A DNA stretch of 55,833 nucleotides from a virus. Under the pieces are notes generated by a model. The model saw only the letters and a list, made by a program, of their open reading frames with translations, was not told where the DNA came from and searched no databases. The stretch spans positions 1 to 55,833 of the IMG/VR virus record IMGVR_UViG_3300021371_000019; one strand, written 5' to 3'. The position numbers and the translations under genes were made by a program. How positions within the stretch are numbered: the stretch's first letter is position 1; each line of letters starts with the position of its first letter. Shown in pieces: positions 1 through 55,833 of the stretch.

Positions 1-185
1 GGATTACCTTGCTCTTTTCAATTCCATTGATTCTAGCATTCTGTGGTGATTGGGGTAATAGTATTGTTCAAGCTGGCTTTGCTGCACTAGAAACTATGCC
101 AGCATGGTATCAATATTCACTAGGTGGAATTGTTTCAGCAAGTATTGGGATCAGATCCGTGAGTAAATTCTTTGGGAAAAAATAA
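1..185 (+). CDS. 3' fragment of 3TM-type holin (left copy)
   Basis: This is the last 61 codons of the gene seen complete at 54719-55072. The reading frame starts at position 3 and the stop TAA (183-185) overlaps the endolysin ATG at 185. It encodes the hydrophobic part of a GTA-type holin ending in a basic GKK tail. In this copy the gene abuts the endolysin directly, whereas in the right copy an 80-codon ORF lies between them. It is truncated only because the window begins here. Confidence 0.8.
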   Translation, partial: ITLLFSIPLILAFCGDWGNSIVQAGFAALETMPAWYQYSLGGIVSASIGIRSVSKFFGKK

Positions 186-694
186 TGAAAAAAAACTTTG
201 ACAAATGTTTATCAATGCTATTACACCATGAAGGTGGGTTTGTAAATCACCCTAAAGATCCGGGCGGTATAACTAACCTCGGTGTTACTAAAGCGGTATA
301 TGACAAATGGATTGGTCGTGAGTCTACTGAACAAGAAATGCGAGACTTAACATTTATAGATGTAGCACCTATTTACAAGAAAAATTACTGGGATAAGGTA
401 AGAGGTGATGACCTTCCTAGCGGTGTTGACTGGTGTGCCTTTGACTGGGGGGTTAATAGTGGTTCTGGCCGTCCAGCTAAAGCTATTCAACGTGCTGTAG
501 GAGCAACAGCAGATGGGGCTATTGGTCCTATGACTCTGCAAGCTATTATGAACAAAGATCCTCAAATGATTATTGAGAGTGTCTTTAGCCAACGTCAGAA
601 GTTTTATGAGTCCTTACGTACCTTTGAGACCTTTGGTCGTGGTTGGACTCGTCGTAACAAAGAAACACTAGACCAAGCATTGAGTATGATCTGA
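185..694 (+). CDS. Endolysin, glycoside hydrolase family 108
   Basis: A 169-residue peptidoglycan hydrolase that should cut the host wall at lysis. The N-terminal EGGFVNHPKDPGG segment, with the catalytic Glu at about residue 16, and the following TNLGVT motif are the signature of the GH108 (N-acetylmuramidase) family. Residues of about 85-165, including DGAIGPMTLQAI, match the peptidoglycan-binding domain usually fused to it. There is no signal peptide, so export should depend on the holin genes just upstream. The start ATG overlaps the holin stop. A second copy, differing by a few residues (I/M and A/V), is at 55311-55820. Confidence 0.93.
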   Translation: MKKNFDKCLSMLLHHEGGFVNHPKDPGGITNLGVTKAVYDKWIGRESTEQEMRDLTFIDVAPIYKKNYWDKVRGDDLPSGVDWCAFDWGVNSGSGRPAKAIQRAVGATADGAIGPMTLQAIMNKDPQMIIESVFSQRQKFYESLRTFETFGRGWTRRNKETLDQALSMI

Positions 695-1011
695 TGAGTA
701 TACCTGAACGAGTCAAGACTAAGATGAAAGATGCTGGACTTAAGTCTGTGAATAAACCACAACGACTTAACGATAGCACTAACAAGTCTCACCACGTTAT
801 GGCTAGTGAAGGTGGTAAGTATAAGTATATTAAGTTTGGTCAGGAAGGTGTTAAGACTAACCAGACTGTAGGACAACGAGAAGCCTTTAAGTCTCGTCAT
901 GCTAAGAACATCAAGAAGGGCAAAATGTCTGCAGCTTACTGGGCCGATAAGGTTAAGTGGAGTAGTAGTAAAACTAAGTCCTCTTCTAAGAAGTGGGTTA
1001 AAGGTTCTTAA
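694..1011 (+). CDS. Small basic conserved phage protein (DUF6321-like)
   Basis: A 105-residue lysine-rich protein. It carries the signature FKSRHAKNIKKGKMSAAYWA near residues 65-85 and a KSHHV...KYIKFGQEGV core. I recall this pattern as DUF6321, common in marine phages and found near lysis or packaging genes. Its function is unknown; the charge and size would suit nucleic acid or virion binding. The start ATG overlaps the endolysin stop (TGATG), so the two are translationally coupled. Confidence 0.75.
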   Translation: MSIPERVKTKMKDAGLKSVNKPQRLNDSTNKSHHVMASEGGKYKYIKFGQEGVKTNQTVGQREAFKSRHAKNIKKGKMSAAYWADKVKWSSSKTKSSSKKWVKGS

Positions 1012-2757: not shown

Positions 2758-2770
2758 TATTTATGTAAAA

Positions 2771-2797: not shown

Positions 2798-2801
2798 TGC
2801 T

Positions 2802-7777: not shown

Positions 7778-7971
7778 GCCAGTTAAAGCTAGTTGTAAAT
7801 AATAAACCTCAATGGGATGCAATGCTGGAAGAAATTGACTTTCGTATTGCATTTATACATAAACAAATGGAACAGTATGATGACCCTGTAGAAATCTATA
7901 GGTTTCAAGGTGAGATTCGTGCACTAAGATCTTTAACTAAACTTAGGGATAAAGTTAATAATGGCTCTTAA
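7774..7971 (+). CDS. Small helical protein after portal
   Basis: 65 residues, ATGA-coupled to the portal gene. It is predicted mostly helical with a charged coiled-coil character (IHKQMEQYDDPVEIYRFQGEIRALRSL). Small proteins of this type commonly follow the portal in marine podoviruses. No function is known to me. Confidence 0.65.
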   Translation: MSQLKLVVNNKPQWDAMLEEIDFRIAFIHKQMEQYDDPVEIYRFQGEIRALRSLTKLRDKVNNGS

Positions 7972-10900
7972 AAATCAAATGGATTCTATGTTACCTAAAA
8001 AAGGTATGAGCTACGGTGAATTAATCGTAGATAACATACTTGGTTTAGATAATGATTATGAATCTTTTGGTGAAAAGCTAGGTAAAGCTGTTGATGAGGA
8101 TGAACTAGGCTTTCTTAAAGATGCTGCTGTAGGTATATATGAGGGAGCTAAAGAGTTTATAACTAATCCTGTAGAAACTACAAAAGAAGTTGTAACTAAT
8201 ATTAAAGATAGTGTACAAAGGCTTGGAACTGAAGATTTAGATACTAGACTTAAAAGTATGTACGGTGTAGACTACACACAAGCTACAGACGAACAAGTAA
8301 ATGCAGCTAGAGAAGCAGTTATTGGTGATGCACTTACTGCTATGGAATTAATTCCTGCAGCTAAAGTAACAGTTAGTGCGGCTAAGGCCGGTAGTGCTGC
8401 TATACCTAGTGGAGTTAAAGCTGATGTAGTGGGTCAGACTAAAGCTTTACTTAGTGGAGACACAGAGTTTTTAAAAGGTACACCAACAGAACGTTCTGGT
8501 ACTGTAGGTGTTGGTGCAGAAGTAGTTGGTCAAGATGATGTAAGTCTTGATGCTATTACTGATTACATGGATTCAGAAGTAGAACCTATTAAATCTAAAA
8601 AACAAACAAACCCTTTAGTTCAAGAAATAGATTATAATAACTATAATACTTCAGGAAGTTTATTTGATTTTCGTAGTTCTGTTTTAGGTTCTTTAGATAA
8701 TCTTGCCATTGGTAAAGATGGTATGTCTGGTTTTCAAATTAAAAAGTTTTTAGAAAAAAGAGCACCAAAAATAAATAAAACAGAATTGTATTGGTCAGGT
8801 CTTTTAGAAAATTTAGACGATAACAAAAAATATTCCAGACTAGAGTTAGAAAATATTGCAGATAGAAATGTACCTAAAGTAGATATACAAGTTCTTGATG
8901 GAAGTCAAGTACGATATCGTAATGAGCAAAGAGTAAATTTAAACGTTAATAATAATGTTATGCAGCCTTTAGATGGCTACAAAGAAATAATTATTGTAAA
9001 TAAAAATACTAAAGGAACTGAATATAGTGCAGGTCATTATGACATTATGTTTCAACCTGATGGTAATGTTTTAGCTCACGTAAGAGGTAGCTTTGTAGAA
9101 AATAATGAGCCAGACTTTCCAATAAAAGAAAAGTTTTTTCTTGTTGAAGAATTGCAAAGTGATGCTGTACAACAACATACGGTAGCAGATAAAGCAATTG
9201 CTAAAAAAATTAAAGAAGAAAAAACATCTAAACCAACTTTAGGTGATATAGGTCTTTACTATCAAACAGAATTTAATAGTATAATTTTTCCTTATCATAT
9301 GGGAGGTCTTGAGTTTACAGATAAATTTGTAAAAGATATAGATAGTTATAATTACAATTTCAGAACTATAGCAGATCAAGACACTGCAGAGCAATCAATA
9401 CAGTTGGGTTTAACTAATATCATAGATGATATGACAAAGTTAAAAAGTCGTTTTTTAGATGGTAATACTAGTAAAGATGCAATTGTATCTCAATTAAGTC
9501 AGAAATACGGTTTAAAAGAAAGATCAATTGCAAGAAAAAGCATACAAGAACTAGATGAAGTTGACAATATCTTTGCAAATGTTTTAGGTGATTATGTTTT
9601 TGGAAAAACTGCTGTAAGAAAATTTAATAAAGAAAATAATAATGAATTTAAAGAAGATTTAATAAACATCTTTAAAGGTATAAATATTACTGCTGGTTTA
9701 GAAAAAGATTTAGTTCCAGCTAAACTATCTGATACAATTAGAATGTCTTTGCTTGCTGTAATTAAAGAATCTAAAAGTGAAGGGGTAAATAAAATATATA
9801 TTCCTACTCCTAAAGTTATGTCTAATGCTCATGCTTTAAGTTTAGAGGCTGCTAAGAATACCTATAGTGATGGAGTCAGAAAAGTTTTAAGAACACTTAA
9901 TAATGAAACAAATGGTAAAATAAAATTTAAAAATAAAAATCCAGAAAACATATCTTATTCCGAAGATAAAAACTCCGTAGGAATAGAAATAGATATTACA
10001 GATTTTAATCTACCAGATAATCCACAGTTTAGATTTGCCAAAGGGGGCGTAGTAAAAGATATGGATAACCAAATGAAAATGGCCTTTATGAATGAAGGTG
10101 GATTAAAAGACGATGGTATGAAACAAGATCCAGTATCAGGTAATGAAATACCTAATGGTTCTATGGCCTCAGAAGTACGAGATGATATTCCTGCTCAACT
10201 ATCTGAAGGTGAGTATGTTGTACCTGCTGATGTTGTTAGATTTTTTGGTATAAAATTCTTTGAAGATCTTCGTTCAAAAGCAAAAAGAGGCTTGCAGTCT
10301 ATGGAAGATAATGGTAGAATAGGTGGTGAGCCAGTACCTATGGAGACTGGTGAGTTATCTGATGAAGAGTTTGCAAAACTGCTGCAACAGGAACTTGGTG
10401 GAACCTTAACGACTCAAAGTGCAGAACCTATAAAAGCTGCTGAAGGTAAATACGTTTCAGGTCAAGCACCATCTTTTAACCCCGATGATTATTTTTTAGG
10501 TTTTTCTGGAACTCCTAAATACACTCCACCTGCAGCAGTGGGTACAGAGCCTGTTGTAGAAACTGAAGCTTCTTGTGCGGCAAAAGGTATGGTCTTAGGT
10601 CCAGCCGGAGTGTGTATAGTTGCACCACAAGCTAAAAATAATAATGACAATGATGGACCTATAGTACCTGCTCCTGCAGCAGGTGAAGGTCAAGGCTTAG
10701 GTGGGGCTTGGTATGGGGAAGATGAACAAAAAATGTTAAACGACCCTGAAGCTTACATTAAAGAACAACTAGCTAGAGGTCAAATGCTTGATAGCGGTTT
10801 AGCTAAAGCTGGTACAATGTTATTACCGGGTGGCTTGGGTTTAGTACTAGGAGGAGTAAACCTTTATAATGATACAAAAGGTATTGCTAATGCTAGAACT

Positions 10901-11437
10901 GCACTTATGGTTGCTAAAGCCAGAGGAACTTTAAGTGCTGAAAAAATAGAAAGCCTTGAAAATGCAATTAGTAAAGATGTCCAAGGTAACTTTATTGTAG
11001 ATAAAGATGGTCAAGGTATAGGTGTAGGTACTGGCATAAATCAGTATAAAGATTATCTTAAGGAATTAGGTTTTACAAATACAGATGAAATAGCTTCAGG
11101 TAAAAACAAAGAGTTTTTAGAAGCAACTAATTCTCGTGCATCTGGCTTTGCTACTAAGACAATGCAAAACTCAGAAAAACGTAAAGCTATGCTAAATCAA
11201 ATAAATAAAAGATCTAAAGAAAAACAAGCGGAAATAGCTGCTAGACCAAGCAGTGGTAGTGACAATGATGATCGTCAAAGCGCAGCTGATGCAATGAGAG
11301 ATAGACAAGATAGAATGGCTAGAGCTGAAGGTCAATCTGGAGGTTTTCAAGGTAGTGCAACTGGTAGTGCTGTCTATGCAGGAGGAAACAGAGCCGAAGG
11401 TGGCTTAATGCTCAAAAAGAAACGTAATAAAAAATAA
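7961..11437 (+). CDS. Large multi-domain virion protein with polyvalent-protein-like domain
   Basis: 1158 residues. The N-terminus (to about residue 200) is helical. Residues of about 340-405 carry a GHYD...LAHVRGSF...LVEELQSDAVQQH pattern that resembles a domain of large polyvalent proteins (HVR...EEiQSDW). From about residue 694 a marine-phage virion module follows (AKGGVV, MNEGGL, DPVSGNEIPNGSMASEVRDD, IPAQLSEGEYVVPADVVRFF). The C-terminus ends EGGLMLKKKRNKK. A structural or co-injected protein is likely. Between portal and scaffold, it could be a head-interior protein. Confidence 0.65.
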   Translation: MALKNQMDSMLPKKGMSYGELIVDNILGLDNDYESFGEKLGKAVDEDELGFLKDAAVGIYEGAKEFITNPVETTKEVVTNIKDSVQRLGTEDLDTRLKSMYGVDYTQATDEQVNAAREAVIGDALTAMELIPAAKVTVSAAKAGSAAIPSGVKADVVGQTKALLSGDTEFLKGTPTERSGTVGVGAEVVGQDDVSLDAITDYMDSEVEPIKSKKQTNPLVQEIDYNNYNTSGSLFDFRSSVLGSLDNLAIGKDGMSGFQIKKFLEKRAPKINKTELYWSGLLENLDDNKKYSRLELENIADRNVPKVDIQVLDGSQVRYRNEQRVNLNVNNNVMQPLDGYKEIIIVNKNTKGTEYSAGHYDIMFQPDGNVLAHVRGSFVENNEPDFPIKEKFFLVEELQSDAVQQHTVADKAIAKKIKEEKTSKPTLGDIGLYYQTEFNSIIFPYHMGGLEFTDKFVKDIDSYNYNFRTIADQDTAEQSIQLGLTNIIDDMTKLKSRFLDGNTSKDAIVSQLSQKYGLKERSIARKSIQELDEVDNIFANVLGDYVFGKTAVRKFNKENNNEFKEDLINIFKGINITAGLEKDLVPAKLSDTIRMSLLAVIKESKSEGVNKIYIPTPKVMSNAHALSLEAAKNTYSDGVRKVLRTLNNETNGKIKFKNKNPENISYSEDKNSVGIEIDITDFNLPDNPQFRFAKGGVVKDMDNQMKMAFMNEGGLKDDGMKQDPVSGNEIPNGSMASEVRDDIPAQLSEGEYVVPADVVRFFGIKFFEDLRSKAKRGLQSMEDNGRIGGEPVPMETGELSDEEFAKLLQQELGGTLTTQSAEPIKAAEGKYVSGQAPSFNPDDYFLGFSGTPKYTPPAAVGTEPVVETEASCAAKGMVLGPAGVCIVAPQAKNNNDNDGPIVPAPAAGEGQGLGGAWYGEDEQKMLNDPEAYIKEQLARGQMLDSGLAKAGTMLLPGGLGLVLGGVNLYNDTKGIANARTALMVAKARGTLSAEKIESLENAISKDVQGNFIVDKDGQGIGVGTGINQYKDYLKELGFTNTDEIASGKNKEFLEATNSRASGFATKTMQNSEKRKAMLNQINKRSKEKQAEIAARPSSGSDNDDRQSAADAMRDRQDRMARAEGQSGGFQGSATGSAVYAGGNRAEGGLMLKKKRNKK

Positions 11438-18794: not shown

Positions 18795-19607
18795 ATGCCC
18801 TACATTGGTAATCAACCTGCACCCACTAATGTTGGTAGTGCTAATATTACAGATGGTTCTATAGTTAATGCTGACGTTAATGCTAGTGCCGCTATTGACG
18901 TTAGTAAACTTAGTGGTGCCGCACCGTTAGCTAGTCCTACATTTACAGGTACAGCAACTGCACCTACAGTAAATGCAAGTACTGCACTACAGATTGGTGG
19001 TGTTGCTATTACATCTACTGCAGCAGAGTTAAATATACTTGACGGAGTGACTTCTACTGCCGCTGAACTTAATATCTTAGACGGTGTTACATCTACAGCA
19101 GCAGAATTAAACATACTTGATGGAGTAACTTCAACGGCTGCAGAGCTAAACAAGCTAGATGGTTATACAGGAGCAGTTGCTGATCTCAATAGAACAGACG
19201 TAACTACAGAAGGCTTATCCCAAGCAAGTAAAGTTGTAACTGCAGACAGCAATGGAGTTGTTTCATTTGACAACGGTACTACTGAAGAAAGTACTGCCAT
19301 TACATCTAGTTCAAATGCAGCTACAATTAACCTGCGTGATGGTAATGTGTTTACTCACACACTATCCGAAAATGTAACATACACATTCAGTAACCCTGCA
19401 GCATCAGGCAGAGCCTCTGCGTTTATCTTAAAGGTAACGCAGGATAGTTCAGCAAGAACTATTACATGGCCCTCAAGTGTTGACTGGGCCGCTGCTACCG
19501 CACCAACAATAACTGCTACTAATGCAGGTGTAGACGTATTTGGTTTTATGACGGTTGACGGTGGTACAACCTATTACGGATTTACGCTTGGACAAGCACT
19601 GGGGTAA
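18795..19607 (+). CDS. Fibre shaft protein A of cassette 1 (AELNILDGV repeats)
   Basis: 270 residues. Consecutive 13-residue TSTAAELNILDGV units lie near residues 73-125; these heptad-like repeats are typical of trimeric phage fibre shafts. The C-terminal domain of about 140 residues (GAVADLNRTDVTTEG to the end) is nearly the same as in the 22144-23304 protein. AAGGAGA precedes the ATG. It is coupled in order with the large fibre at 19614, suggesting the two form one receptor-binding unit. Confidence 0.75.
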   Translation: MPYIGNQPAPTNVGSANITDGSIVNADVNASAAIDVSKLSGAAPLASPTFTGTATAPTVNASTALQIGGVAITSTAAELNILDGVTSTAAELNILDGVTSTAAELNILDGVTSTAAELNKLDGYTGAVADLNRTDVTTEGLSQASKVVTADSNGVVSFDNGTTEESTAITSSSNAATINLRDGNVFTHTLSENVTYTFSNPAASGRASAFILKVTQDSSARTITWPSSVDWAAATAPTITATNAGVDVFGFMTVDGGTTYYGFTLGQALG

Positions 19608-19613
19608 TAAACT

Positions 19614-21608
19614 ATGACTGCTAGTAAAATTGTATTAAATGCTGCATCAGGTGCTGGTGGTGCTGCTCTGAACGTAGAGGATGTGTTCAGCACTTATTTG
19701 TATTCAGCTAATAACGCTGGTTTAACCATCACCAACGGCATTGACCTTGCTGGTGAAGGTGGTTTGGTCTGGGGTAAAAGCCGTAGTGCAACCCAAAACC
19801 ACCGGCTTTATGATACGGAAGGCAACGGCCTTTACTCAAACCTTACTAATGGTTCCTTTGGCTCTTCTGGTCGTTTCACTGCTAATAGCGATGGTTTTGA
19901 TTTAACAGCAAGTTCAGGAATTGTAGGGGGAAGTGGTTTTGGAGGCCCTGACTACGCCTCTTGGACATTCCGCAAAGCCGAAAAGTTCTTTGATGTAGTA
20001 ACTTATACTGGGAATGGCGCATCATCTCGTGCTATTAGTCATAACCTAAATTCTACCCCGGGTATGATTATTATCAAACAGACTAGTTCTAATGGTGAAA
20101 ACTGGATTGTTTGGCACAGAAGTATAAGCAATGTATCTAACGGTGAGATTATTTACTTAAATGCTTCAGATAGTGAAAGTGGTATGAATGGCAAGTTTGA
20201 TGGGGCTAATCTGCCTACCTCTACTACCTTTACTATAGAGCAAGACAACTCAGTAAATGCTTCTAATGCAACCTACGTTGCTTACCTATTCGCCCACAAT
20301 AATAATGACGGGGAGTTCGGGCCTGATGCTGACCAAGATATTATCAAGTGTGGTAGCTATACTGGTAATGGTTCTGCTACTGGGCCAAGTGTCAGTCTTG
20401 GGTTTGAACCTCAGTGGGTAATGATTAAAAAAACAAACGCATCAGGTAACTGGCAACTTTTTGATATTATGCGAGGTATGGTTGTTGATGGATCTGATAA
20501 GAGAATCGTACCAAACAGCAATAGTGCAGAGGATAGTATTCAGTCTTTAAGCCCTACTGCAACAGGTTTTAATATTAACACTACAAGCGGAAACCTTAAC
20601 AGTAACAACAGTAATTACATCTACATGGCCATTCGCCGCCCTACTGCTGTGCCTGAGAGTGGGACTGAGGTGTTTAAAACATATGATTTAACATCGGCAA
20701 GTTTGAACACTCAAGTATCTACATCCTTTCCCCCTGATATGTCTTTGCATCTATCTAATGATGGTAATAAATTAACTGTAAATAGACTTACAGGTGGAAT
20801 ACACGCAAATAGCTCTAATAATTCTCCACGTAATTGGCTTCAACTTTATGGTAATGACGCAGAAGACACTGGCAATTACGGTTTGTATTATAACTTTAAC
20901 AGTACTAGCTTTAAAGTAAGTAATAATGGATATTCAGGCCAGAGTGATTCACCCTATGCTTATATGTGGAAACGTGCGCCTAAATATTTTGATCTTGTTG
21001 CTTACTCAGGAAACTCAACAGCAGGGCGTACTGTAAGCCATAACCTTGGTGTTGCACCAGAAATGTTTTGGATAAAAAATAGAACTCATAATGGAGAAGA
21101 TTGGATTGTATACCATAAAGATATTGGTAATGGAAAGTATTTGATTCTACAGGATATTTATGGAGAAACGACAGATACTTCTAACGCCCGTCTTCACGGT
21201 ACAAATCCGACTGCAACAAACTTTACTTTAGGTAGTAATGTTCAAGTTAATGCTAGTGGTGATGATTATATAGCCTACCTATTCGCAACCCTTGATGGCA
21301 TATCCAAGGTTGGTTCCTATACTGGGAATGGCTCAAACCAGACTATTAACTGCGGCTTTAGCAGTGGCGCAAGATGGATTCTTATTAAGCGTACAGACAG
21401 CACAGTGAGTACAGGTAATTGGTATGTCTGGGATACTGAACGTGGTATTGTCGCAGGAGATGAGCAGCACACTGTTATGAATACAGTCACAGGTAAGGGC
21501 ACTGATGATAGCGTTGACCCTGCAAACAGTGGCTTCATTGTCAATCAGATAAGTGCTACGAACATTAACGTATCAAGCGCAGAGTACATTTTCTACGCAA
21601 TCGCATAA
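19614..21608 (+). CDS. Large receptor-binding-type fibre protein, cassette 1
   Basis: 664 residues with two internal copies of a domain that begins FFDVVTYTGNG or YFDLVAYSGNS, continues with HNL...PGMIIIK / PEMFWIK and W-VWH / W-VYH, and ends with YVAYLFA / YIAYLFA. I believe this is the domain called DUF7483, common in marine phage fibres. It is the paralogue of the 23308-25233 protein. Likely function is binding host surface structures. Confidence 0.75.
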   Translation: MTASKIVLNAASGAGGAALNVEDVFSTYLYSANNAGLTITNGIDLAGEGGLVWGKSRSATQNHRLYDTEGNGLYSNLTNGSFGSSGRFTANSDGFDLTASSGIVGGSGFGGPDYASWTFRKAEKFFDVVTYTGNGASSRAISHNLNSTPGMIIIKQTSSNGENWIVWHRSISNVSNGEIIYLNASDSESGMNGKFDGANLPTSTTFTIEQDNSVNASNATYVAYLFAHNNNDGEFGPDADQDIIKCGSYTGNGSATGPSVSLGFEPQWVMIKKTNASGNWQLFDIMRGMVVDGSDKRIVPNSNSAEDSIQSLSPTATGFNINTTSGNLNSNNSNYIYMAIRRPTAVPESGTEVFKTYDLTSASLNTQVSTSFPPDMSLHLSNDGNKLTVNRLTGGIHANSSNNSPRNWLQLYGNDAEDTGNYGLYYNFNSTSFKVSNNGYSGQSDSPYAYMWKRAPKYFDLVAYSGNSTAGRTVSHNLGVAPEMFWIKNRTHNGEDWIVYHKDIGNGKYLILQDIYGETTDTSNARLHGTNPTATNFTLGSNVQVNASGDDYIAYLFATLDGISKVGSYTGNGSNQTINCGFSSGARWILIKRTDSTVSTGNWYVWDTERGIVAGDEQHTVMNTVTGKGTDDSVDPANSGFIVNQISATNINVSSAEYIFYAIA

Positions 21609-22143: not shown

Positions 22144-23304
22144 ATGAGTAAAGCAAGAGATTTAGCCAACTTGATGTCAACTGGCAATGAGTTGGCAGAT
22201 GGAAACATTAGTGTTGCTGAAATAAATGACTTAACAGCTACGGCTGCTGAGTTAAATATTATGGATGGTGTTACTGCTACTGCTGCAGAGTTAAACTTTG
22301 TTGATGGTGTTACATCTAATGTTCAAACACAGGTAGATGCCAAACAACCATATGCCACAATTGCAGTTACTGTAGTTGACTCTGGTGGCAACAAGTATGC
22401 ACTTGATGGTACTGTACAACAGCTTGCTTTACTTACTCCTTCTGTAACATATAGGTTTGATCAGTCTGACTCTTCTAACTCAGGACATCCATTACTATTT
22501 AGTACAACTTCAAATGGTACACATGGTGGTGGTAGTGCATTTACTACAGGTGTTACTTCAGTAGGAACAGCAGGTAGTGCAGGTGCTTATACACAGATCA
22601 AGCTAGAACAAGATACGCCAAGTCCTTTGTATTACTACTGTGTAAATCATTCTGGTATGGGTGGTGAAGCAAACAAGACAATCTCTAAACTGTCAGACTT
22701 GGGTGTTACTTCTACTTCTACTGAGTTAAACATATTAGATGGAGTTACCTCAACTGCAGCAGAGTTGAATATTTTAGATGGTGTTACTTCAACCACAGCA
22801 GAACTGAACATCCTTGACGGTGTTACAAGTACTACGGCAGAGTTAAATAAGTTAGATGGCTTTACAGGTGCAGTAGCAGACCTTAACAGAACTGATGTAA
22901 CTACTGAGGGAACAACAGAGGCTAGTAAAGTTGTAACTGCAGATAGTAATGGTGTTGTAACATTTGATAATGGTAAGATAGAAGAGAGCACTGCAGTTAC
23001 ATCTTCAAGTAATGCAGCCACAATTAACCTACGTAACGGTGATAACTTTACCCATACGTTAAGTGAGAATGTGACATACACATTTAGTAATCCTGCAGCT
23101 TCTGGTAAGGTATCTGCATTTACACTTAAAGTAATACAAGATTCTTCTGCAAGGACAATTACGTGGCCCTCTAGTGTGGATTGGGCAGCAGCTACTGCTC
23201 CAACAATAACTGCCACTTCAGGTGGTGTTGATGTGTTTGTATTTACAACATATGATGGTGGAACTACATATTATGGATTTACTGCTGGTCAGGCAATGGG
23301 CTAA
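22144..23304 (+). CDS. Fibre shaft protein B of cassette 2 (paralogue of 18795-19607)
   Basis: 386 residues. It has the same AELNILDGV-type repeats (two near the N-terminus, four near residues 190-240) and the same C-terminal domain of about 140 residues as the cassette 1 shaft. An extra domain of about 115 residues between the two repeat blocks (about 65-180) contains YRFDQSDSSNSGHPL and YYYCVNHSGMGG, a copper/cupredoxin-like spacing that I note without assigning function. The nucleotide repeats are more diverged than the protein repeats. Confidence 0.75.
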   Translation: MSKARDLANLMSTGNELADGNISVAEINDLTATAAELNIMDGVTATAAELNFVDGVTSNVQTQVDAKQPYATIAVTVVDSGGNKYALDGTVQQLALLTPSVTYRFDQSDSSNSGHPLLFSTTSNGTHGGGSAFTTGVTSVGTAGSAGAYTQIKLEQDTPSPLYYYCVNHSGMGGEANKTISKLSDLGVTSTSTELNILDGVTSTAAELNILDGVTSTTAELNILDGVTSTTAELNKLDGFTGAVADLNRTDVTTEGTTEASKVVTADSNGVVTFDNGKIEESTAVTSSSNAATINLRNGDNFTHTLSENVTYTFSNPAASGKVSAFTLKVIQDSSARTITWPSSVDWAAATAPTITATSGGVDVFVFTTYDGGTTYYGFTAGQAMG

Positions 23305-23307
23305 TAC

Positions 23308-25233
23308 ATGAGTACAGCTAATAAATATATGCAATCTGCATCAGGTGTTGGTGGTGCTGGCCTTAATGTAGAAGAAGTGTTCAGCACTAATCTTTACACA
23401 GGAAATAACAGTGCTTTAACTGTTAATACAGGTCTGGATCAGAACACTGAGGGTGGAATGCTCTGGGTAAAAAGCAGAAGCACTGGCTCAACAAATCATG
23501 GGATTTGGGATACTGAAAGAACAAATGGTTATTATCTTCCTGTTAATTCCTCTGATAACGGAGGGAATATTTCAGCAGCAAGTGGCACTAATCCTTTTCT
23601 TAGAGATGGTAGCTTTAGGTGGAACGCAGGGCATGGTTGGTTTAATCAAAGTGGAGATTATGTAGCTTGGGCATTTCGTAAAGCCCCTAAGTTTTTTGAT
23701 GTGGTGACTTATACTGGAACGGGTTCCAACCTTACCATAAACCATAACTTAGGCTCAGTCCCGGGCTGTATAATTATTAAGTGTACCAGTGCTGTAAAGT
23801 CTTGGGTAGTTTACCATAGAGGTGTCAACGGCGGTGTTAACCCAGAGGATTATGCACTATTCTTAAATACTACCGATGCGCAAAACGATAATCTATACTT
23901 TCAAGACACGGCCCCAACAAGCACTCAGTTCTTCTTAGGGGATAGCGCAGCAAATGAAAACGGACAAACACACGTTGCCTACCTATTCGCCCACAATGAT
24001 GGTGACGGTGAGTTTGGGCCTGATGGCGATGCTGATATTATTAAGTGTGGTGTTGCTACAATTAGTGGGGATACAACAGTTGATCTTGGGTTTGAGCCTC
24101 AGTGGGTTTTATATAAAAATGCTTCTGGTAACAGTAATTGGACAATTATAGATTCAATGAGAGGTTTTACAGCAGATGGGGCAATCTCTGCTTTGTACCC
24201 TAATACTTCTGGTGCTGAATCAGCAGGGTCAGGCTATGAGAAATTAACATCTACTGGTTTTGTACTCCAAAATTATACTAATGGTCATAATTATGTTTAC
24301 GTAGCCATACGCCGTGGTACTGCTGTGCCTGAGAGTGCGACTGAGGTGTTTGCGGTTTCAGATAGAAAAAATGAGATACCAAGTTTTCCAAGTGGCTTTC
24401 CTGTAGACTTTCTTATAGGCCCACGAACAATAAACGGTGCTGATAACAATGAAGTTAAGACTAGGTTAACCTCAGGTGGTTATTTAAGAACCAACACCAC
24501 AGGTGCTGAAACTGTTTCTAGCCAAGTAGCAAACTTTGCTCATAACGATGGGTTCTTTAACTTTGATGGGGCAAACGCCAATCAATATGCTTGGATGTGG
24601 AAACGTGCGCCGGGCTTTTTCGATGTCGTTGCTTACACGGGTACGAATGTTGCTGGTTTAACCATAAATCACAACCTTGGCGTTGTACCAGAAATGATAT
24701 GGGTAAAGAATAGAAGTGCATCAGAATACTGGGCAGTATATCATAAAGACTTAAATGGTGGCACAAACCCTTCTCATTACTTCTTAAAGCTAAATGATAC
24801 GAATGCTGAAACAGACTACAATGAGATATGGAATGACACTGAGCCGACAGATACTCAATTTACGGTTGGGCAGCAAGGTGTTGTAAATGGGTTTGAGAAG
24901 AACCAAATAGCCTACCTCTTCGCAAGCCTCCCCGGTATATCCAAGGTGGGGAGCTACACTGGTAACGGTTCTACGTTAAACATTGACTGTGGCTTTACGT
25001 CAGGTGCTAGGTTTGTGCTGATTAAGGCTGTGAGTACTTCTGGGTCGTGGTATGTACTAGATACTGCAAGAGGTATTGTTGCAGGTAATGACCCTGTTTT
25101 AAGCCTAAACACCACTGACGCAGAAGAAGCGTATGATGACTTGATAGACCCTTATTCAGCAGGGTTTACTTTAAACGGTGTTGGCATGGTGAATGCAAAC
25201 ACTGTTGACTACATCTTCTACGCAATAGCATAA
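23308..25233 (+). CDS. Large receptor-binding-type fibre protein, cassette 2 (paralogue of 19614-21608)
   Basis: 641 residues with the same two-domain plan as the first large fibre: FFDVVTYTGTG, INHNLGSVPG, W-VYHRG, then FFDVVAYTGTN, INHNLGVVPEMIWVK and W-VYHKD. N-termini are similar (GVGGAGLNVEEVFST against GAGGAALNVEDVFST) while the segments between conserved strands differ. This is what is expected of alternative host-recognition proteins from an old duplication. Confidence 0.75.
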   Translation: MSTANKYMQSASGVGGAGLNVEEVFSTNLYTGNNSALTVNTGLDQNTEGGMLWVKSRSTGSTNHGIWDTERTNGYYLPVNSSDNGGNISAASGTNPFLRDGSFRWNAGHGWFNQSGDYVAWAFRKAPKFFDVVTYTGTGSNLTINHNLGSVPGCIIIKCTSAVKSWVVYHRGVNGGVNPEDYALFLNTTDAQNDNLYFQDTAPTSTQFFLGDSAANENGQTHVAYLFAHNDGDGEFGPDGDADIIKCGVATISGDTTVDLGFEPQWVLYKNASGNSNWTIIDSMRGFTADGAISALYPNTSGAESAGSGYEKLTSTGFVLQNYTNGHNYVYVAIRRGTAVPESATEVFAVSDRKNEIPSFPSGFPVDFLIGPRTINGADNNEVKTRLTSGGYLRTNTTGAETVSSQVANFAHNDGFFNFDGANANQYAWMWKRAPGFFDVVAYTGTNVAGLTINHNLGVVPEMIWVKNRSASEYWAVYHKDLNGGTNPSHYFLKLNDTNAETDYNEIWNDTEPTDTQFTVGQQGVVNGFEKNQIAYLFASLPGISKVGSYTGNGSTLNIDCGFTSGARFVLIKAVSTSGSWYVLDTARGIVAGNDPVLSLNTTDAEEAYDDLIDPYSAGFTLNGVGMVNANTVDYIFYAIA

Positions 25234-25998: not shown

Positions 25999-28900
25999 AT
26001 GGCAAGATTTAGTACGGCACAAAAAGAAACTCTACGTAAAATGGCTGAAGAAGGCAAGCTCGCCACATCTCAGTTACAAAACATTATGCGTAATGCTGAA
26101 GAGTTAAGGCAACTTAACAAAGGTGGTGTTGTAGGCTTTCAAGCTGGAGGTGTACCCAACCCATTTGTAAGTTATTACAATAATCAGAATCAAATTATTT
26201 CAAAAATGAGTTCACCACAAAATAATCCAATGTCGGGTATGAGTGCTAATGAAGCTAATGCATATAAAGCTAATCAATTAAATATGCAAATGGGAACAGG
26301 CAATCCTCAAAGTGCTACATACCAAGCTAGTTTAGGACCAGCAGCAACTAATCAACAACCTGCCGCTGTGATACGTGCAGGACAACCTTCTGCACAACAA
26401 ACTGCTATGCAGCCACAGATGCAAGAAGTGCCAGCAGACGTACAACAAAGGCTAGATAGTCGTAGACAAGTGCTAAAACAAGACCGAATTGGCCAAGCTA
26501 TGCAGGAAAAGTTTGGTGAACAAGGTAAGCCAGATAATTATATTCCAGAGTTTTCTTCTAAAATGAAGGCATTACAAGATAACATGAAAGCTACTAATTC
26601 AGCTTTCTTTACATCTAAAGGAATAGCTGAAGGTGATTATTCAGCTATGAATAGATACATGCAGTCTAATCCTAATGCACAACAAGAATTAAATGCTGCA
26701 TTACAAGCTGATCAACAACAGGTAGATGCTCTTACTCAGCAGTTAGAAAACAATCCAGAGTTTAAAGCATATCAGACAGAAGCAGAGCAGTATCAGCGCA
26801 GTATTGATCCTCGTACAGGTATGCCACCAAAGTTTGTAGGTGGACCTGCATTGCCTCCTTCAGAACGTATTGATGACGGTCCTATTGGACAGCCTTCTCT
26901 GTACTCTGGTGACATAACACAACAGACCCTTCAGGATATTTTAGCTATGTCTACGGGAAGCTCTCCTGCAGACCTTCAGTATGACTTTAATGGTGATGGT
27001 AAAATCACAGCAGATGATGCTAATAGAGCCATGAAAGCGGGTATAGGAAAAGGTACAGTGGTTCCTGATAGTGGTGGTGAAGGTGGTTTATATGATCCGT
27101 CACAAGGTATGCCTGAAAAAGTTAATACTGATAAAATGCTTGAGGGTCTTTCTTGGAATCCTCATTCTCAAAAAGGCATTGATATGCTTTTGGAATCAGG
27201 TAAGTTACCTAGTGATGAAATGTTTAACAAGTTAATAGGTCTTGATGGTACAGAAAAATTAGTTCCTAATCCAGATAAGTATGAAGTATCTGGGGGTAGA
27301 GAAAATTGGATATTTACTTTTGAAGATGGTACATCTACGGTTGTTAATAGGTACGACTTAGATAAGGCTAAGAAAACACTTGCTGAAGAAATTACTCCTG
27401 TTATATCTAAATTAAAAGAGAGGGGTTTTGAAGAAAAAAATCAACAGTTTAAAAACCAAGAAGAAGCATATCGTAAATACATTTCAGAAGAGACTACTGG
27501 TGGTGTAACTGGCGACATTGAAAACATTGAAGAAGAATACAAAAAAGCTCAAAGTAACTATAAACAAGCAGAGCTAGAATTACAAAGGCTAAAAGCACAG
27601 GCAGAGGCTAATCCAAATGATCCTTATTTAAAAGGGCTTGTAGAAGAAAAAGAAAAAACAGTAACAGATCTTTCTGCTCGTATTAAACAACTTGAACCTA
27701 CATTTAAGGAGTCACAAAAAACAATCTCAGATATAATGATAGAGAAGGCTAAAGATCCTGCTTCTCTAGTTACTAAAACTAAAGTAGATACTATAGACCC
27801 TGAGACTGCTGGTACAATTATACCTGAAGATACAGGTCAATTGAAAGGTGATATTTCGTATGATCCTGTAAAAGGAGTAGTTACTACATCAGAAGGTGTA
27901 GAAAAAGCAGATGCTGCAACATATGATGCTACTACTGTTTCAGGTAAATCTAAAGAAGAGTTAGATAAAGTTGAAGCTGCAAGACTGGATGAGTTTTCTG
28001 ATGGTGTTACATTTGAAGGGGAACAAGGGGAGCTATCAGAGGGTGCTTATGCTGATGAGGCATTAAAAGTAGCTGCAGATCGTATCCAAAAAGTCAATGA
28101 AAAAGTAGACCTAGAAGTTACTAAACAACAACTAGCAGAAGCAAAAGGTAAAAACCTAAAAGCTATACAAACAAAAGTAGCAAAGTCTTCTGCTTTACTA
28201 GATGCAATAGCAGCAGCACATGTAGTTCAACCTAATGAGCTTCCTACTCCACAGCTTATTGCTGAAGAGGACATGGCGCAAGCTAAAGCTATGACTGACA
28301 CAGGGTTAGACAAAGATGCTATCCCTATTGCTGCAAAAATGGCAAGCTTCTCTGTAGATAATGGTACATTAGCTAAGGCTGCACAAGGTGATGTAGATTC
28401 ACTTGCTACAGTAGAAGGTCAGCTTGGTAAGCTAATGAAACAGTTTGACGATGGTACACCTGCATGGGCTGCAGGGGCTATTCGTGCAGCTAATGCAGCT
28501 ATGTCCTCACGGGGTCTAGGTGCATCCTCTATGGCAGGTGCGGCTATCCTACAGGCAGCTATGGAATCTGCGTTACCTATTGCTCAACAAGATGCTAACA
28601 CTTTTGCACAAATGGGTATGCAAAACCTAAATAATCGTCAGCAAGTTGCTATTGCTAACGCTGCTGCACAACAAGGCTTGCAATTACAAAACTTAGACAA
28701 TCAGCAAAAAGCTAACCTACAAAAAAGTGTTAATGCTTTTAGTTTGCAAACACAAAACTTGTCCAATCGTCAAGCTGCTGAAGTGGCAAACGCACAAATT
28801 CGTGCTACTTTGCAAGGGCAAAACTTAAGTAATAGACAGCAAACTAATATTGCTGAAGCAGCTAGATACGCAGAAGCAGCTAATATTAACTTAAATAATA

Positions 28901-29880
28901 AACAGCAAGCAGCAATGCAAGATAATTCAAATGCTTTGCAGACTAACTTAGCTGAACTATCTTCTGAACAAAGTGCGTATATTAATAGTGCCAATGCTGC
29001 AGCCGCACTGCAAGGTCAAGTTCTTTCTAATGATCAACAAGTATCTATCGCTAATGCTGCAAGATATTCAGAAGCTGCTAACATAGAGTTTACTGCAGAA
29101 CAACAAAATGCATTGCATAACTCTAAGTTAATGTCATCCATAGGTTTAGCTGAGTTAAATGCAACTCAAGCCGCTACTTTACAAAATGCTGCAACCGTTG
29201 CTAATATGGATATCACAAATCTAAACAATCGGCAGCAAGCTGCAGTACAAAATGCTAAATCGTTCCTACAAAAAGACATGACTAATCTGAGTAACGAGCA
29301 ACAAATTGCAGTATTTAAAGCACAGGCTACACAACAGGCATTGTTATCCGATCAAGCTGCAGATAATGCTGCCAAGCAGTTTAATGCATCATCTGAGAAT
29401 CAAACTAATCAATTCTTTGCTAACCTTGAACAACAAAACAATCAGTTTAATGCTGCTCAAACTAATGCTATGGAACAAGCTAATGTCAACGCAGAAAATG
29501 CTGCACTAGAATTTAATGCTAATATTAAAAATAATCGAGAACAATTTAATGCTTCTAATTCTCTTGTTATAGCTCAAGCTAATGCGCAGTGGAAACAAAA
29601 TGTAGCTACAATAAATACAGCTGCTCAGAATGAAGCTAATGCTGCAGATGCAGCGGCTGCTAATGCTTTTACTTCTACAACAATGGACGAGGTATGGCAA
29701 CGTGAACGTGACCTTATGGACTTTGCTTTTACAGCCTCTGAAAGTGAGCAAGATAGAATTAACAATGTTGTTCTGCAAAAAATCTCTGCTGATGCAACTT
29801 TAGACGCTGCAAAATTAAAGGCAGATATGGAAGCTGATTCAACAATTGGTAGTTGGGTCAGAGATATTATTTTTACATAG
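25999..29880 (+). CDS. Large Gln/Asn-rich internal virion protein with helical repeats
   Basis: 1293 residues. The N-terminus has a KGGVVGFQAGGVPN element near residue 46. Residues 329-340 (DFNGDGKITADD) form a canonical EF-hand calcium loop (D329, N331, D333, K335, T337, D340). From about residue 870 to 1150 the sequence consists of 30-40-residue Gln/Asn/Ala units of the type LNNRQQVAIANAA...LQ. These should form long amphipathic or coiled helices, as expected for an ejection-tunnel protein. The two flanking genes are also internal-protein types. Confidence 0.65.
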   Translation: MARFSTAQKETLRKMAEEGKLATSQLQNIMRNAEELRQLNKGGVVGFQAGGVPNPFVSYYNNQNQIISKMSSPQNNPMSGMSANEANAYKANQLNMQMGTGNPQSATYQASLGPAATNQQPAAVIRAGQPSAQQTAMQPQMQEVPADVQQRLDSRRQVLKQDRIGQAMQEKFGEQGKPDNYIPEFSSKMKALQDNMKATNSAFFTSKGIAEGDYSAMNRYMQSNPNAQQELNAALQADQQQVDALTQQLENNPEFKAYQTEAEQYQRSIDPRTGMPPKFVGGPALPPSERIDDGPIGQPSLYSGDITQQTLQDILAMSTGSSPADLQYDFNGDGKITADDANRAMKAGIGKGTVVPDSGGEGGLYDPSQGMPEKVNTDKMLEGLSWNPHSQKGIDMLLESGKLPSDEMFNKLIGLDGTEKLVPNPDKYEVSGGRENWIFTFEDGTSTVVNRYDLDKAKKTLAEEITPVISKLKERGFEEKNQQFKNQEEAYRKYISEETTGGVTGDIENIEEEYKKAQSNYKQAELELQRLKAQAEANPNDPYLKGLVEEKEKTVTDLSARIKQLEPTFKESQKTISDIMIEKAKDPASLVTKTKVDTIDPETAGTIIPEDTGQLKGDISYDPVKGVVTTSEGVEKADAATYDATTVSGKSKEELDKVEAARLDEFSDGVTFEGEQGELSEGAYADEALKVAADRIQKVNEKVDLEVTKQQLAEAKGKNLKAIQTKVAKSSALLDAIAAAHVVQPNELPTPQLIAEEDMAQAKAMTDTGLDKDAIPIAAKMASFSVDNGTLAKAAQGDVDSLATVEGQLGKLMKQFDDGTPAWAAGAIRAANAAMSSRGLGASSMAGAAILQAAMESALPIAQQDANTFAQMGMQNLNNRQQVAIANAAAQQGLQLQNLDNQQKANLQKSVNAFSLQTQNLSNRQAAEVANAQIRATLQGQNLSNRQQTNIAEAARYAEAANINLNNKQQAAMQDNSNALQTNLAELSSEQSAYINSANAAAALQGQVLSNDQQVSIANAARYSEAANIEFTAEQQNALHNSKLMSSIGLAELNATQAATLQNAATVANMDITNLNNRQQAAVQNAKSFLQKDMTNLSNEQQIAVFKAQATQQALLSDQAADNAAKQFNASSENQTNQFFANLEQQNNQFNAAQTNAMEQANVNAENAALEFNANIKNNREQFNASNSLVIAQANAQWKQNVATINTAAQNEANAADAAAANAFTSTTMDEVWQRERDLMDFAFTASESEQDRINNVVLQKISADATLDAAKLKADMEADSTIGSWVRDIIFT

Positions 29881-46697: not shown

Positions 46698-46817
46698 TTA
46701 ATCCTTTCCTTTATGTTTTTCTTTTCGTTTAGGCACAGGTTTTTTCTTATCAGGTATTACCTGTTGCTTATACTTAGGTTGTCTAAGATCTTTAGCCATT
46801 GGGTTAGGTTTTTTCAT
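46698..46817 (-). CDS. Small very basic protein, 39 residues
   Basis: MKKPNPMAKDLRQPKYKQQV and a Lys/Arg-rich end (KKKPVPKRKEKHKGKD). AAGGG precedes the ATG, which lies in the last codons of the integrase gene, and the stop abuts the ThyX ATG. The MAKDLRQPKYKQ pattern recurs in marine phages next to ThyX in my memory. Likely nucleic-acid binding; function unknown. Confidence 0.6.
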   Translation of the reverse strand: MKKPNPMAKDLRQPKYKQQVIPDKKKPVPKRKEKHKGKD

Positions 46818-47901
46818 TACCCTTTCTCCTATCTAATGCTGACTTAGCTGCAGCATAAGTATGCTTATGGTATGGATTGAGTGACGAGATATTCTGATGC
46901 CCTGTCACGGACATTATAGCTAGATGATCTACCTCTGAGTCAATCATTTCTACGATAGCACTCTTTCTTAAATCTCCGACAAGTAAATTAGATGGTAAGT
47001 CTGCAGCTTCTTTTATTTGATTTGCTAACCACGATACCTGACCTACGTTTAGCGGCCTGTAAGCACCGTCTGATGGCCTCTGATGTGGTACTACATACTC
47101 TTGAAAGTCCCAGTCTTTCTTCTGTTGTGTGAGCATGTTCATAATCTCATCAGATATTGGTAGCTCAACTGTTGCACCACGTTTAGTTTGTTTTATTTTT
47201 ACTTTCTTTTCTTTAAAATTAATTGAAGACCACTTTAATAATCTTATATCAGTAGGTCTTTGTGCCCATTCATAGCACATTAGTACAATTAATCCCACGT
47301 TACGCCAATCAAAGTCAGTGAATGCCACATCAAGAAATTTTTCTACTTGTTCTTTTGTCCATGTTGTATCCCTTGTTTCATGTTTTCTTTTACGAACTTT
47401 AGACATGGGGTTATACTTAATTAAATCAATAGAGATACAAAAATTTATTAATAATGAAAAGATTCTTGCACACTGATTCCCTTTTGACACACTCACATCT
47501 TCACACCATTCCTCATAGGCTTCAGTGCAGTGCATTGCAGTAAGATCTTTAATCTTAATCTGACCTAACTTCCTACTACCAACACTTGTGTTAGCTATAG
47601 CATTCATTGTGTTATCATAGGTTTTCTGTGAGCTATATGCCAACTGTTTAAAATGTGTAGTTGTAACATAGTATTTATAGATGTGTAGTATTGTAGAGTT
47701 GGCTCCAATATTTCCTGCGACAATATCCCCACGTTTAAATGCCTCTACCTTTTCTACTAGCCTTGGTATTTCATACCTTGCTGCACGTCCATCTTTAAAT
47801 GTTTGTCTTCGTACAACACCAGCATCAATAGCATCTTGTGGTGGTGTGAATCTCCATACAGTACCAGCCTTTAAGTTTCCTTTCTTTGTATATTTATACA
47901 T
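46804..47901 (-). CDS. int: Tyrosine recombinase (integrase)
   Basis: 365 residues. An N-terminal arm/core-binding region is followed by the catalytic domain: AQRPTDIRLL (first Arg), KQTKRGATVELPIS (Lys hairpin), VGDLRKSA (second Arg, R312), TGHQNISSLN and the Tyr in NPYHKHT. In the H-x-x-R box the His is replaced by Gly309, which weakens but need not abolish activity. It could integrate the phage or resolve multimers. I do not see a tRNA gene or an attP core near it. Confidence 0.85.
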   Translation of the reverse strand: MYKYTKKGNLKAGTVWRFTPPQDAIDAGVVRRQTFKDGRAARYEIPRLVEKVEAFKRGDIVAGNIGANSTILHIYKYYVTTTHFKQLAYSSQKTYDNTMNAIANTSVGSRKLGQIKIKDLTAMHCTEAYEEWCEDVSVSKGNQCARIFSLLINFCISIDLIKYNPMSKVRKRKHETRDTTWTKEQVEKFLDVAFTDFDWRNVGLIVLMCYEWAQRPTDIRLLKWSSINFKEKKVKIKQTKRGATVELPISDEIMNMLTQQKKDWDFQEYVVPHQRPSDGAYRPLNVGQVSWLANQIKEAADLPSNLLVGDLRKSAIVEMIDSEVDHLAIMSVTGHQNISSLNPYHKHTYAAAKSALDRRKGNEKT

Positions 47902-52391: not shown

Positions 52392-52425
52392 AAAAAAAAA
52401 GCTCCCCGAAGGGAGCTTCTTTTAT
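52392..52425 (-). terminator. Intrinsic terminator with UUCG loop
   Basis: On the minus strand AAGCTCCC, loop TTCG, GGGAGCTT, then nine T. It lies at the stop of the 61-residue gene. On the plus strand the same hairpin is followed by TTCTTTT, so it could work both ways. It separates the first two early genes from the rest of the leftward block. Confidence 0.85.
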
Positions 52426-52607
52426 ATTTCACCAAGAGCAATCAAACAATCTATAAAGCCTTCAGCTTTATGTTTGTTGACCCAATGGTCACTCTCCTTT
52501 TTAAGGAGGACTGGATGATCTATATGATCGTTTATTAAACGACCTTGATAACAAAAACAGTATTCAGTATTTGAATACTCTAAGATTTGAACTCCACAAT
52601 ATTCCAT
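52422..52607 (-). CDS. Hypothetical protein, 61 residues
   Basis: MEYCGVQILEYSNTEYCFCY followed by a helical C-terminus (EGFIDCLIALGEI). Cys-rich N-terminus (three Cys in 18 residues). The ribosome site GGAG is in the loop region of an 8-bp hairpin (TTTAAATC-GGA-GATTTAAA, 52608-52626). The gene itself is packed with short hairpins. Not recognised. Confidence 0.6.
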   Translation of the reverse strand: MEYCGVQILEYSNTEYCFCYQGRLINDHIDHPVLLKKESDHWVNKHKAEGFIDCLIALGEI

Positions 52608-52629
52608 TTTAAATCTCCGATTTAAAGTT

Positions 52630-52650
52630 AATCACGGAAATTCCGAGATT
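52630..52650 (-). promoter_or_regulatory. Operator-like dyad, copy 6 (opposite orientation)
   Basis: Plus strand AATCACGGAA, A, TTCCGAGATT; the asymmetric halves are reversed relative to copies 1-4 and 7. One mismatch from a perfect palindrome. It lies just upstream of the hairpin that contains the ribosome site of the 61-residue gene and just after the terminator-like hairpin of the 204-residue gene. Confidence 0.7.
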
Positions 52651-54226: not shown

Positions 54227-54472
54227 TTGCCTAAAATGTATTCTTCAGATAATGTGCTAGAGGAATTTTACAAAGCTCTAGCTGATGAGGATGAAGGCAG
54301 ACTCCGTAGAGTCCACATCCCAAGATCAGATGTGTTCTATATCAGAAATAAAATATTAGAGGACACAGGCGTTAAGTATTCCCTAGACAGAGTTGAAAGA
54401 GCTATGTACTTAGAGGGTCATCTTAAGGCTTCAGACGTGTTTGAACCTAGAAGAAAAAGAGATTGGGAATAA
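54227..54472 (+). CDS. First rightward early protein, 81 residues
   Basis: Start chosen at TTG 54227 because AAGGAC lies six bases upstream; an ATG three codons later is also possible. The sequence is charged and helical (YSSDNVLEEFYKALADEDEG, RSDVFYIRNKILEDTG, VERAMYLEGHLKASDVF) and could be a small DNA-binding or regulatory protein. It is the only candidate I see beside the dyads to be their binder, with no direct evidence. Confidence 0.6.
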   Translation: MPKMYSSDNVLEEFYKALADEDEGRLRRVHIPRSDVFYIRNKILEDTGVKYSLDRVERAMYLEGHLKASDVFEPRRKRDWE

Positions 54473-54476
54473 ACCT

Positions 54477-54722
54477 ATGGCAAAAACTGTTCTTGATGAT
54501 TGGAAAGTGCTACCACGACTAATGATGCTGGCAGTTACTATACTTACCTACCAAGCAGTACACTGGTTCATGTCTTTACCTGACCCTAGTGTAGCTCAAT
54601 CAGGTCTTGTCTCCGTTTGTATGGGAGCTTTGACTGGTTGCTTTGGGATTTGGATGGGTAAAGAATCTAAAACAACTGTAACACCTACTAGAGTTGTTCA
54701 TGAAGAAAGTTATAACAAATGA
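54477..54722 (+). CDS. Small membrane protein, putative holin
   Basis: 81 residues from the ATG at 54477 (MAKTVLDDWKVLPRL), preferred over an in-frame start 12 codons earlier because that lies under the previous gene. Two transmembrane segments (about 13-33 and 44-63: MMLAVTILTYQAVHWFM, LVSVCMGALTGCFGIWMG), then a hydrophilic tail. Next to a 3TM holin and an endolysin, so a holin or antiholin role is likely. ATGA-coupled to the next gene. Confidence 0.6.
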   Translation: MAKTVLDDWKVLPRLMMLAVTILTYQAVHWFMSLPDPSVAQSGLVSVCMGALTGCFGIWMGKESKTTVTPTRVVHEESYNK

Positions 54723-55072
54723 TTGGTCAAATTATAGGAGCAATTGGCGGATTAGCCTCTTCTTACCTAGATGGTAAGGTAGCAATACAAAAAGCTAACG
54801 CTGAGATTAAACTTAAGCAAGCTACTGGTGAGATAGACTGGGATCTAGCAGCTATTCAAGCTACTCAGAACTCTTGGAAAGACGAATGGATTACCTTGCT
54901 CTTTTCAATTCCATTGATTCTAGCATTCTGTGGTGATTGGGGTAATAGTATTGTTCAAGCTGGCTTTGCTGCACTAGAAACTATGCCAGCATGGTATCAA
55001 TATTCACTAGGTGGGATTGTTTCAGCAAGTATCGGGATTAGATCCGTAAGTAAATTCTTTGGGAAAAAGTAA
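54719..55072 (+). CDS. 3TM-type holin (GTA holin family)
   Basis: 117 residues. An N-terminal IGAIGGLASSYLDGK amphipathic region, a charged helix (KANAEIKLKQATGEIDWDLA), then SWKDEWITLLFSIPLILAFC and a C-terminal GGIVSASIGIRSVSKFFGKK. The order and DEW-TLL-SIPL motif match the holin family of phage and gene transfer agents (GTA_holin_3TM). It would form the membrane lesion that lets the endolysin out. The last 61 codons are repeated at positions 1-185. Confidence 0.8.
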   Translation: MIGQIIGAIGGLASSYLDGKVAIQKANAEIKLKQATGEIDWDLAAIQATQNSWKDEWITLLFSIPLILAFCGDWGNSIVQAGFAALETMPAWYQYSLGGIVSASIGIRSVSKFFGKK

Positions 55073-55314
55073 TGGCTATTAATAGGACAGGTAAAGAAGA
55101 AAAACCTAGATTTACTGGGACTGAAAAGATAAGACTACGTAAAATCCTTAAAGATAATCCAGTGTATTTCGATAAAATACTTAGAGATCTTTATAAACCA
55201 CCAACTAAAAAAACCAAACCAAACTCTATCGGCCCAGAATTACGGGATAAAAAAGGTGTACTTAAACGAGCCTTATTGAATAAAGGTGGTATGGTAAAAG
55301 GTAAAAAGAAATGA
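55072..55314 (+). CDS. Strain-variable basic protein, 80 residues
   Basis: Present only in the right terminal copy. Lys-rich with a helical middle (EKIRLRKILKDNPVYFDKIL), a Lys/Thr/Pro linker and a KGGMVKGKKK tail like other small proteins here. The start overlaps the holin stop (TAATG) and the stop overlaps the endolysin start (ATGA). It is flanked by short near-repeats, GGGAAAAAGTAATG and GGTAAAAAGAAATG. Perhaps a lysis modulator or an unrelated cargo gene. Confidence 0.65.
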   Translation: MAINRTGKEEKPRFTGTEKIRLRKILKDNPVYFDKILRDLYKPPTKKTKPNSIGPELRDKKGVLKRALLNKGGMVKGKKK

Positions 55315-55820
55315 AAAAAAACTTTGACAAATGTTTATCAATGCTATTGCACCATGAAGGTGGGTTTGTAAATCACCCTAAAGATCCGGGCGGTATGACT
55401 AACCTCGGTGTTACTAAAGCGGTATATGACAAATGGATTGGTCGTGAGTCTACTGAACAAGAAATGCGAGACTTAACATTTATAGATGTAGCACCTATTT
55501 ACAAGAAGAATTATTGGGATAAGGTAAGAGGCGATGATCTTCCTAGCGGTGTTGACTGGTGTGCCTTTGACTGGGGGGTTAATAGTGGTTCTGGTCGTCC
55601 AGCTAAAGCTATTCAACGTGCTGTAGGGGTAACAGCAGATGGGGCTATTGGTCCTATGACCCTTCAAGCAATTATGAACAAAGATCCTCAGATGATTATT
55701 GAGAGTGTCTTTAGTCAACGCCAGAAGTTCTATGAGTCTTTACGTACCTTTGAAACCTTTGGTCGTGGTTGGACTCGTCGTAATAAAGAAACCCTAGACC
55801 AAGCATTGAGTATGATCTGA
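55311..55820 (+). CDS. Endolysin, glycoside hydrolase family 108 (right copy)
   Basis: 169 residues, same GH108 and peptidoglycan-binding layout as the gene at 185-694. Differences visible: M for I at about residue 29, V for A near residue 107, otherwise synonymous. Most changes fall at third codon positions, which indicates purifying selection on the protein. It is one locus represented by two variants, not two genes of one virion in all probability. Confidence 0.93.
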   Translation: MKKNFDKCLSMLLHHEGGFVNHPKDPGGMTNLGVTKAVYDKWIGRESTEQEMRDLTFIDVAPIYKKNYWDKVRGDDLPSGVDWCAFDWGVNSGSGRPAKAIQRAVGVTADGAIGPMTLQAIMNKDPQMIIESVFSQRQKFYESLRTFETFGRGWTRRNKETLDQALSMI

Positions 55821-55833
55821 TGAGTATACCTGA

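Follow-up and report, generated by a model that had tools for sequence, protein, structure and literature searches.

The window, i.e., the whole stretch of 55,833 nucleotides analyzed here, is almost certainly one circle-mapping marine phage genome of about 54.9 kb, assembled from short metagenome reads of a mixture of two strains and joined at an assembly fork, so that it begins with version A of a lysis segment and, after one full turn, overshoots into version B. Comparison of its ends with each other and with related contigs revealed several features of this segment: (i) the two ends are identical over exactly one k-mer length, (ii) the relatives L001-L003 carry one locus per genome, (iii) the arrangements with and without the small gene ORF80 both occur in nature, and (iv) version A is of mosaic ancestry. 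The 127-base fork, together with the single loci in relatives, indicates that the ends are an assembly artefact, and the occurrence of both arrangements in other contigs indicates that the gene polymorphism beneath them is genuine.

Window positions 1-707 align with the right end in two BLASTN blocks, of 187 bp (97.3% identity) and 534 bp (95.7%), separated by a 239-bp block that is present in the right copy only (946 - 707 = 239). Base-by-base comparison gave 25 substitutions per 707 aligned bases, or 3.5% (5 + 20 substitutions, the switch between the blocks being set at base 184). Thus, the first-pass annotation was right that the ends hold one locus in two diverged versions, and its figure of about 4% divergence was close. 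The 239-bp block corresponds to one whole ORF, ORF80 (Table 1), which overlaps both the preceding stop codon (TAATG) and the endolysin start (ATGA). The placing of an 80-codon ORF between holin and endolysin stands as far as position goes, whereas "holin" is a positional label only; the 117-aa holin-like gene has no holin family match in Pfam, PHROGs or NCBIfam, and it may act as a holin judging by its place in the cassette. The endolysin exceeds the Pfam gathering scores for both of its domains (101.2 vs 21.2 bits for GH108, 40.6 vs 24.6 bits for PG_binding_3). Between versions A and B its gene differs by 18 synonymous codons and two residue changes (I29M and A107V); since the differences are mostly synonymous, A and B look like functional alleles and not like sequencing noise. 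The final 40 bases of the two versions are identical. Both contig ends cut genes: the left end begins within the holin-like gene, and the right end lies 14 bases into the gene starting at 694. The small ORF upstream of the holin-like gene likely starts at an internal ATG at 54477.

Table 1. Features of the lysis segment and of the contig ends (window coordinates)
Feature	Position	Strand	Remarks
Version A of the locus	1..707	+	3' part of the holin-like gene (stop at 185), then the endolysin directly; no ORF80
Fork sequence, left copy	1..127	+	identical to 54888-55014, exactly 127 bases
Endolysin, version A	185..694	+	bases 470-630 identical to the ORF80-less contig L010
105-aa gene 3' of the endolysin in version A and L001-L003	694..1011	+	phrog_7595, unknown function
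Small ORF upstream	54441..54722	+	phrog_10198, unknown function; hydrophobic stretch
Holin-like gene (117 aa), version B	54719..55072	+	phrog_2524, unknown function
Locus in version B, where the contig overshoots the circle	54888..55833	+	99.2-99.3% identical to L001-L003
Fork sequence, right copy	54888..55014	+	circle closes here (54,887 bp)
ORF80 (80-aa accessory protein), version B only	55072..55314	+	strongly basic (+17), no hydrophobic segment
Endolysin (169 aa), version B	55311..55820	+	GH108 4.6e-29, PG_binding_3 2.9e-10, phrog_315 endolysin

The two fork copies match exactly, and the first mismatch falls at base 128. Passages of PMC11584781 and PMC7171226 describe JGI runs with metaSPAdes -k 33,55,77,99,127, so that k = 127 is known for the JGI pipeline in general and not from the assembler settings of this record. 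As stated in passages of the COBRA paper (PMC10914622), assemblers break at multi-path positions and metaSPAdes leaves shared ends of maxK length. Assuming evenly spread differences, an identical run of exactly 127 bases at 3.5% divergence would arise by chance with a probability of about 0.0004 (0.965^127 x 0.035). The window ends share an identical stretch of exactly the maxK length, as at an assembly fork, and not the identical direct repeat of physical termini: beyond 127 bases there are divergence and the 239-bp indel. In one relative record, G001 (54,756 bp, the contig of locus L007), the two ends are exact direct copies of the same 127 bp, and the record closes to a circle of 54,629 bp; the end repeat is absent from four of the five relative records compared, as expected for fragments, which leaves G001 as the one positive control. 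Joined at the fork, the window gives a circle of 54,887 bp; its circularity was concealed by the 819 bases that the contig continues past the fork, in the other strain. The exact maxK-length shared end at a multi-path position resembles the COBRA cases of PMC10914622, where variation within a population leaves overlaps one k-mer long at the ends of viral metagenome contigs; unlike them, the window overshoots the fork into a second strain, which masks its circularity from an end-repeat test. End-repeat tests can thus miss a closed phage genome of this kind, and such overshot circles could be recovered by looking inside each contig for a second, exact copy of its first k bases.

The sample would have contained two closely related strains with most of their sequence in common but with different holin-like/endolysin segments, A without and B with ORF80; the coexistence of A and B in one sample is our reading of the contig. 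In a de Bruijn graph with k = 127, the path would split right after the 127-mer at the contig start, and the contig would begin at this fork on branch A, run once round the circle, meet the fork again and continue into branch B. Since the right end has only 40 bases in common with version A, the contig does not stop where the branches rejoin over a 127-mer; branch B would then have to end either for want of coverage or at another fork. ORF80 would be an optional accessory gene, exchanged by recombination around the A-rich stop/start junction (preceded by GGGAAAAARTAATG and followed by GGTAAAAAGAAATG).

Three IMG/VR contigs, L001, L002 and L003, carry version B continuous with the body of the window, in the unbroken order holin-like gene, ORF80, endolysin, gene 694 and gene 1011. 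This uninterrupted order argues for one locus per genome; the gene map of the 80 loci compared takes one best match for each gene, and its count of second copies is therefore not exhaustive. The three contigs are 99.2-99.3% identical to version B over 946 bases, vs 96.3-96.4% to the 534-bp endolysin block of version A. From about position 740, long stretches of the window interior are nearly identical to L002, and patches that differ from L002 occur at about 2,300-3,000 and, more heavily, at about 52,400-52,630. The interior cannot be assigned wholly to strain A or to strain B. In the heavier patch (52400-52650), about one third of the bases mismatch L002 and L003 between near-identical flanks.

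A true imperfect terminal redundancy, in which the lysis segment would stand in a diverged copy at either end of one virion DNA, would agree with both copies standing at the ends of one contig and with their functional appearance (18 of the 20 changed endolysin codons are synonymous). It is nevertheless scarcely credible, since the identical run has exactly the length of the usual pipeline k, genes are cut at both ends, three relatives have one continuous copy, and G001 closes to a circle by an exact 127-bp repeat. The mosaic of B-like and L010-like sequence in version A indicates that recombination acts here, and could be taken to favor recombination within one genome, by which the lysis segment was truly duplicated in tandem or became an A/B heterozygous concatemer; this too has hardly any probability, given that L001-L003 hold a single copy at the matching place and that the exact 127-bp run would have to be a coincidence. 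The earlier description of the copies as genome ends was therefore abandoned in view of the exact fork repeat and the single, continuous loci in relatives, while its proposal of two strains joined in assembly gained support from the run of pipeline length, the closure of G001 and the continuity of L001-L003.

It is also very unlikely that version A arose as a chimera or error of the assembly, with no ORF80-less phage of this lineage in existence. Such an error would explain why the region at about 1,050-2,300 is almost identical to the ORF80-bearing L002 and L003, while 128-734 differs by about 4%. However, A-specific alleles recur in the independent ORF80-less contig L010, the holin-like gene and the endolysin meet directly on TAATG in many of the best 80 of at least 596 relatives, and the A/B differences are mainly synonymous. 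When viral_contigs was searched, a 72-mer specific to A matched in one contig only, that of L010. Within 470-630, where A equals L010, B differs at 11 sites (502, 504, 535, 538, 544, 565, 589, 595, 604, 613 and 628); within 185-460, A is instead close to B, and L010 stands well apart from the two. Version A is a mosaic between B-like and L010-like sequence, the pattern expected from homologous recombination within the endolysin gene, which argues against a random assembly error; to judge from these alignments, it is a natural allele. The exact empty-junction pattern was found in two contigs only, those of L041 and L042, so that few contigs of the collection have the version A junction together with this particular endolysin start. 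The claim that the lysis cassette is naturally polymorphic for the presence of a gene was borne out, as ORF80-less versions are common in relatives, and versions A and B provide a natural with/without pair for a small lysis-cassette gene.

ORF80 has a net charge of +17. Among contig pairs that differ, it shows 5-12 synonymous vs 1-4 changed codons, and this mainly synonymous change indicates that it is kept as a protein. No family was found for it in Pfam, PHROGs or NCBIfam, no tblastn match at E 0.01 among 50,697 phage records, and nothing better than E 0.69 in a PDB profile search. AlphaFold, run with six sequences, predicted with fair confidence a core of two helices, at 16-28 and 30-41, and nothing else (mean pLDDT 65.8), a model too weak to be used for finding similar folds. 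A role as holin or inner-membrane spanin is unlikely for ORF80; our guess is an accessory protein that binds nucleic acid, the virion or the envelope and is made alongside the lysis genes. The search gave 10 matches: L086-L088 come from the contigs of L001-L003, L091 from that of L046, and L093 and L094 carry the homolog described below. ORF80 itself occurs in seven distinct contigs, each time with the holin-like gene on one side and the endolysin on the other. Another of the 10, L095 (50% over 31 residues), was set aside: it lies in a 241-residue frame, and no other cassette gene was matched in its locus.

To describe this boundary in close relatives, we compared the best 80 of at least 596 endolysin relatives in viral_contigs, a sample that is not a census. 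No holin-like gene was found upstream in 7 of the 80, leaving 73 classifiable loci: the holin-like gene and the endolysin are adjacent or overlapping in 48, and one gene stands between them in 25. Four different small genes fill this place within the sample, namely ORF80 (4 loci), a gene for 119 aa (4 loci), one for 151 aa (11 loci; the holin-like frame looks broken in L034), and one for 118 aa with a hydrophobic N-terminus (6 loci). The holin-like gene ends in the TAATG stop overlap, and in most cases its ATG is the start of the inserted gene. A fifth gene, gp71 (89 aa), takes the place of ORF80 in the cultured Roseobacter phage CRP-13 (MW514247), which otherwise has the same order of holin-like gene, small gene and endolysin with packaging genes downstream; the CRP-13 endolysin region has no DNA match to the window.

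The boundary genes have no overall similarity to each other (BLASTP, E 1). The 151-aa protein resembles, in low-complexity basic sequence, a 149-aa protein encoded between the endolysin and gene 694 (25% over 107 residues, E 7e-6), and the 119-aa protein has a 17-residue tail (88%, BLASTP) in common with the 118-aa protein of the hol1/hol2 boundary. A tail around (N/S)KGG(M/L)(V/A) was seen in otherwise dissimilar small basic proteins encoded at window positions 1264-1437 and 55072-55314, at L012:1081-1440 and at L013:4295-4651; the KGG motif also occurs in the large window proteins encoded at 7961-11437 and 25999-29880. The possibility that the cargo genes are homing endonucleases was rejected, as none of the nine cargo proteins matched an endonuclease family in PHROGs. 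These comparisons show that small, mostly basic genes turn over at the boundary before the endolysin. Recurrent gene turnover before the endolysin in this marine phage group is the most interesting part of the finding. In the "moron"-type accessory insertions of phages, too, a lone small gene is found or missing between two conserved genes; unlike these, the boundary genes here fit into a compact operon through overlapping stop and start codons. The lysis-related passages of PMC8528129, PMC9038755 and PMC6918029 give no account of turnover at the endolysin boundary.

Three boundary-gene families also occupy other cassette boundaries. A homolog of ORF80 (85 aa, 53-55% identical) lies directly 3' of the gene-694 relative in L093 and L094. 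Relatives of the 119-aa gene (33-36%) follow gene 1011 in five loci. A gene for 118 aa, whose product begins much like a signal peptide, stands at hol1/hol2 in three loci and has relatives (40-45%) after gene 694 in seven. One such protein (118 aa), encoded at L044:4246-4602, has a signal-peptide-like start, a C-terminal phenylalanine and relatives at two boundaries; it has no family match in PHROGs and in these features resembles a small outer-membrane barrel. We tentatively suggest, as a possibility that falls short of even odds, that the lysis cassette has several exchange sites (hol1/hol2, hol2/endolysin, endolysin/694, after 694 and after 1011), at which unrelated small, mostly strongly basic genes might be swapped as whole ATG-to-stop units on overlapping stop/start codons; the same families might move between sites via homologous tracts and short A-rich stop/start microhomologies, and not by a recombinase.

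The large terminase of the window is nearest to that of CRP-13 (82.6%) and other CRP phages, with 67.7% identity to HMO-2011, in line with HMO-2011-type packaging; the DNA polymerase is nearest to that of CRP-6 (56.4%), and an integrase family match was found at 46804-47901. Passages of PMC8528129 describe 12 metagenomic genomes that combine HMO-2011-type morphogenesis with CRP-6-like replication genes; an integrase is present in 10 of these genomes, and the window fits this description of mixed HMO-2011/CRP-6-like genomes. Repeats were also noticed inside the window. In the tail-fiber region, the stretches 19009-21360 and 22706-24997 are diverged duplicates (74.5% over 722 bp plus weaker pieces). 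A tandem duplication of about 105 bp (1949-2186) lies inside gene 1440-2351, whose protein has a full-length match in L002 and L003 and an 85% match over 296 residues in L001.
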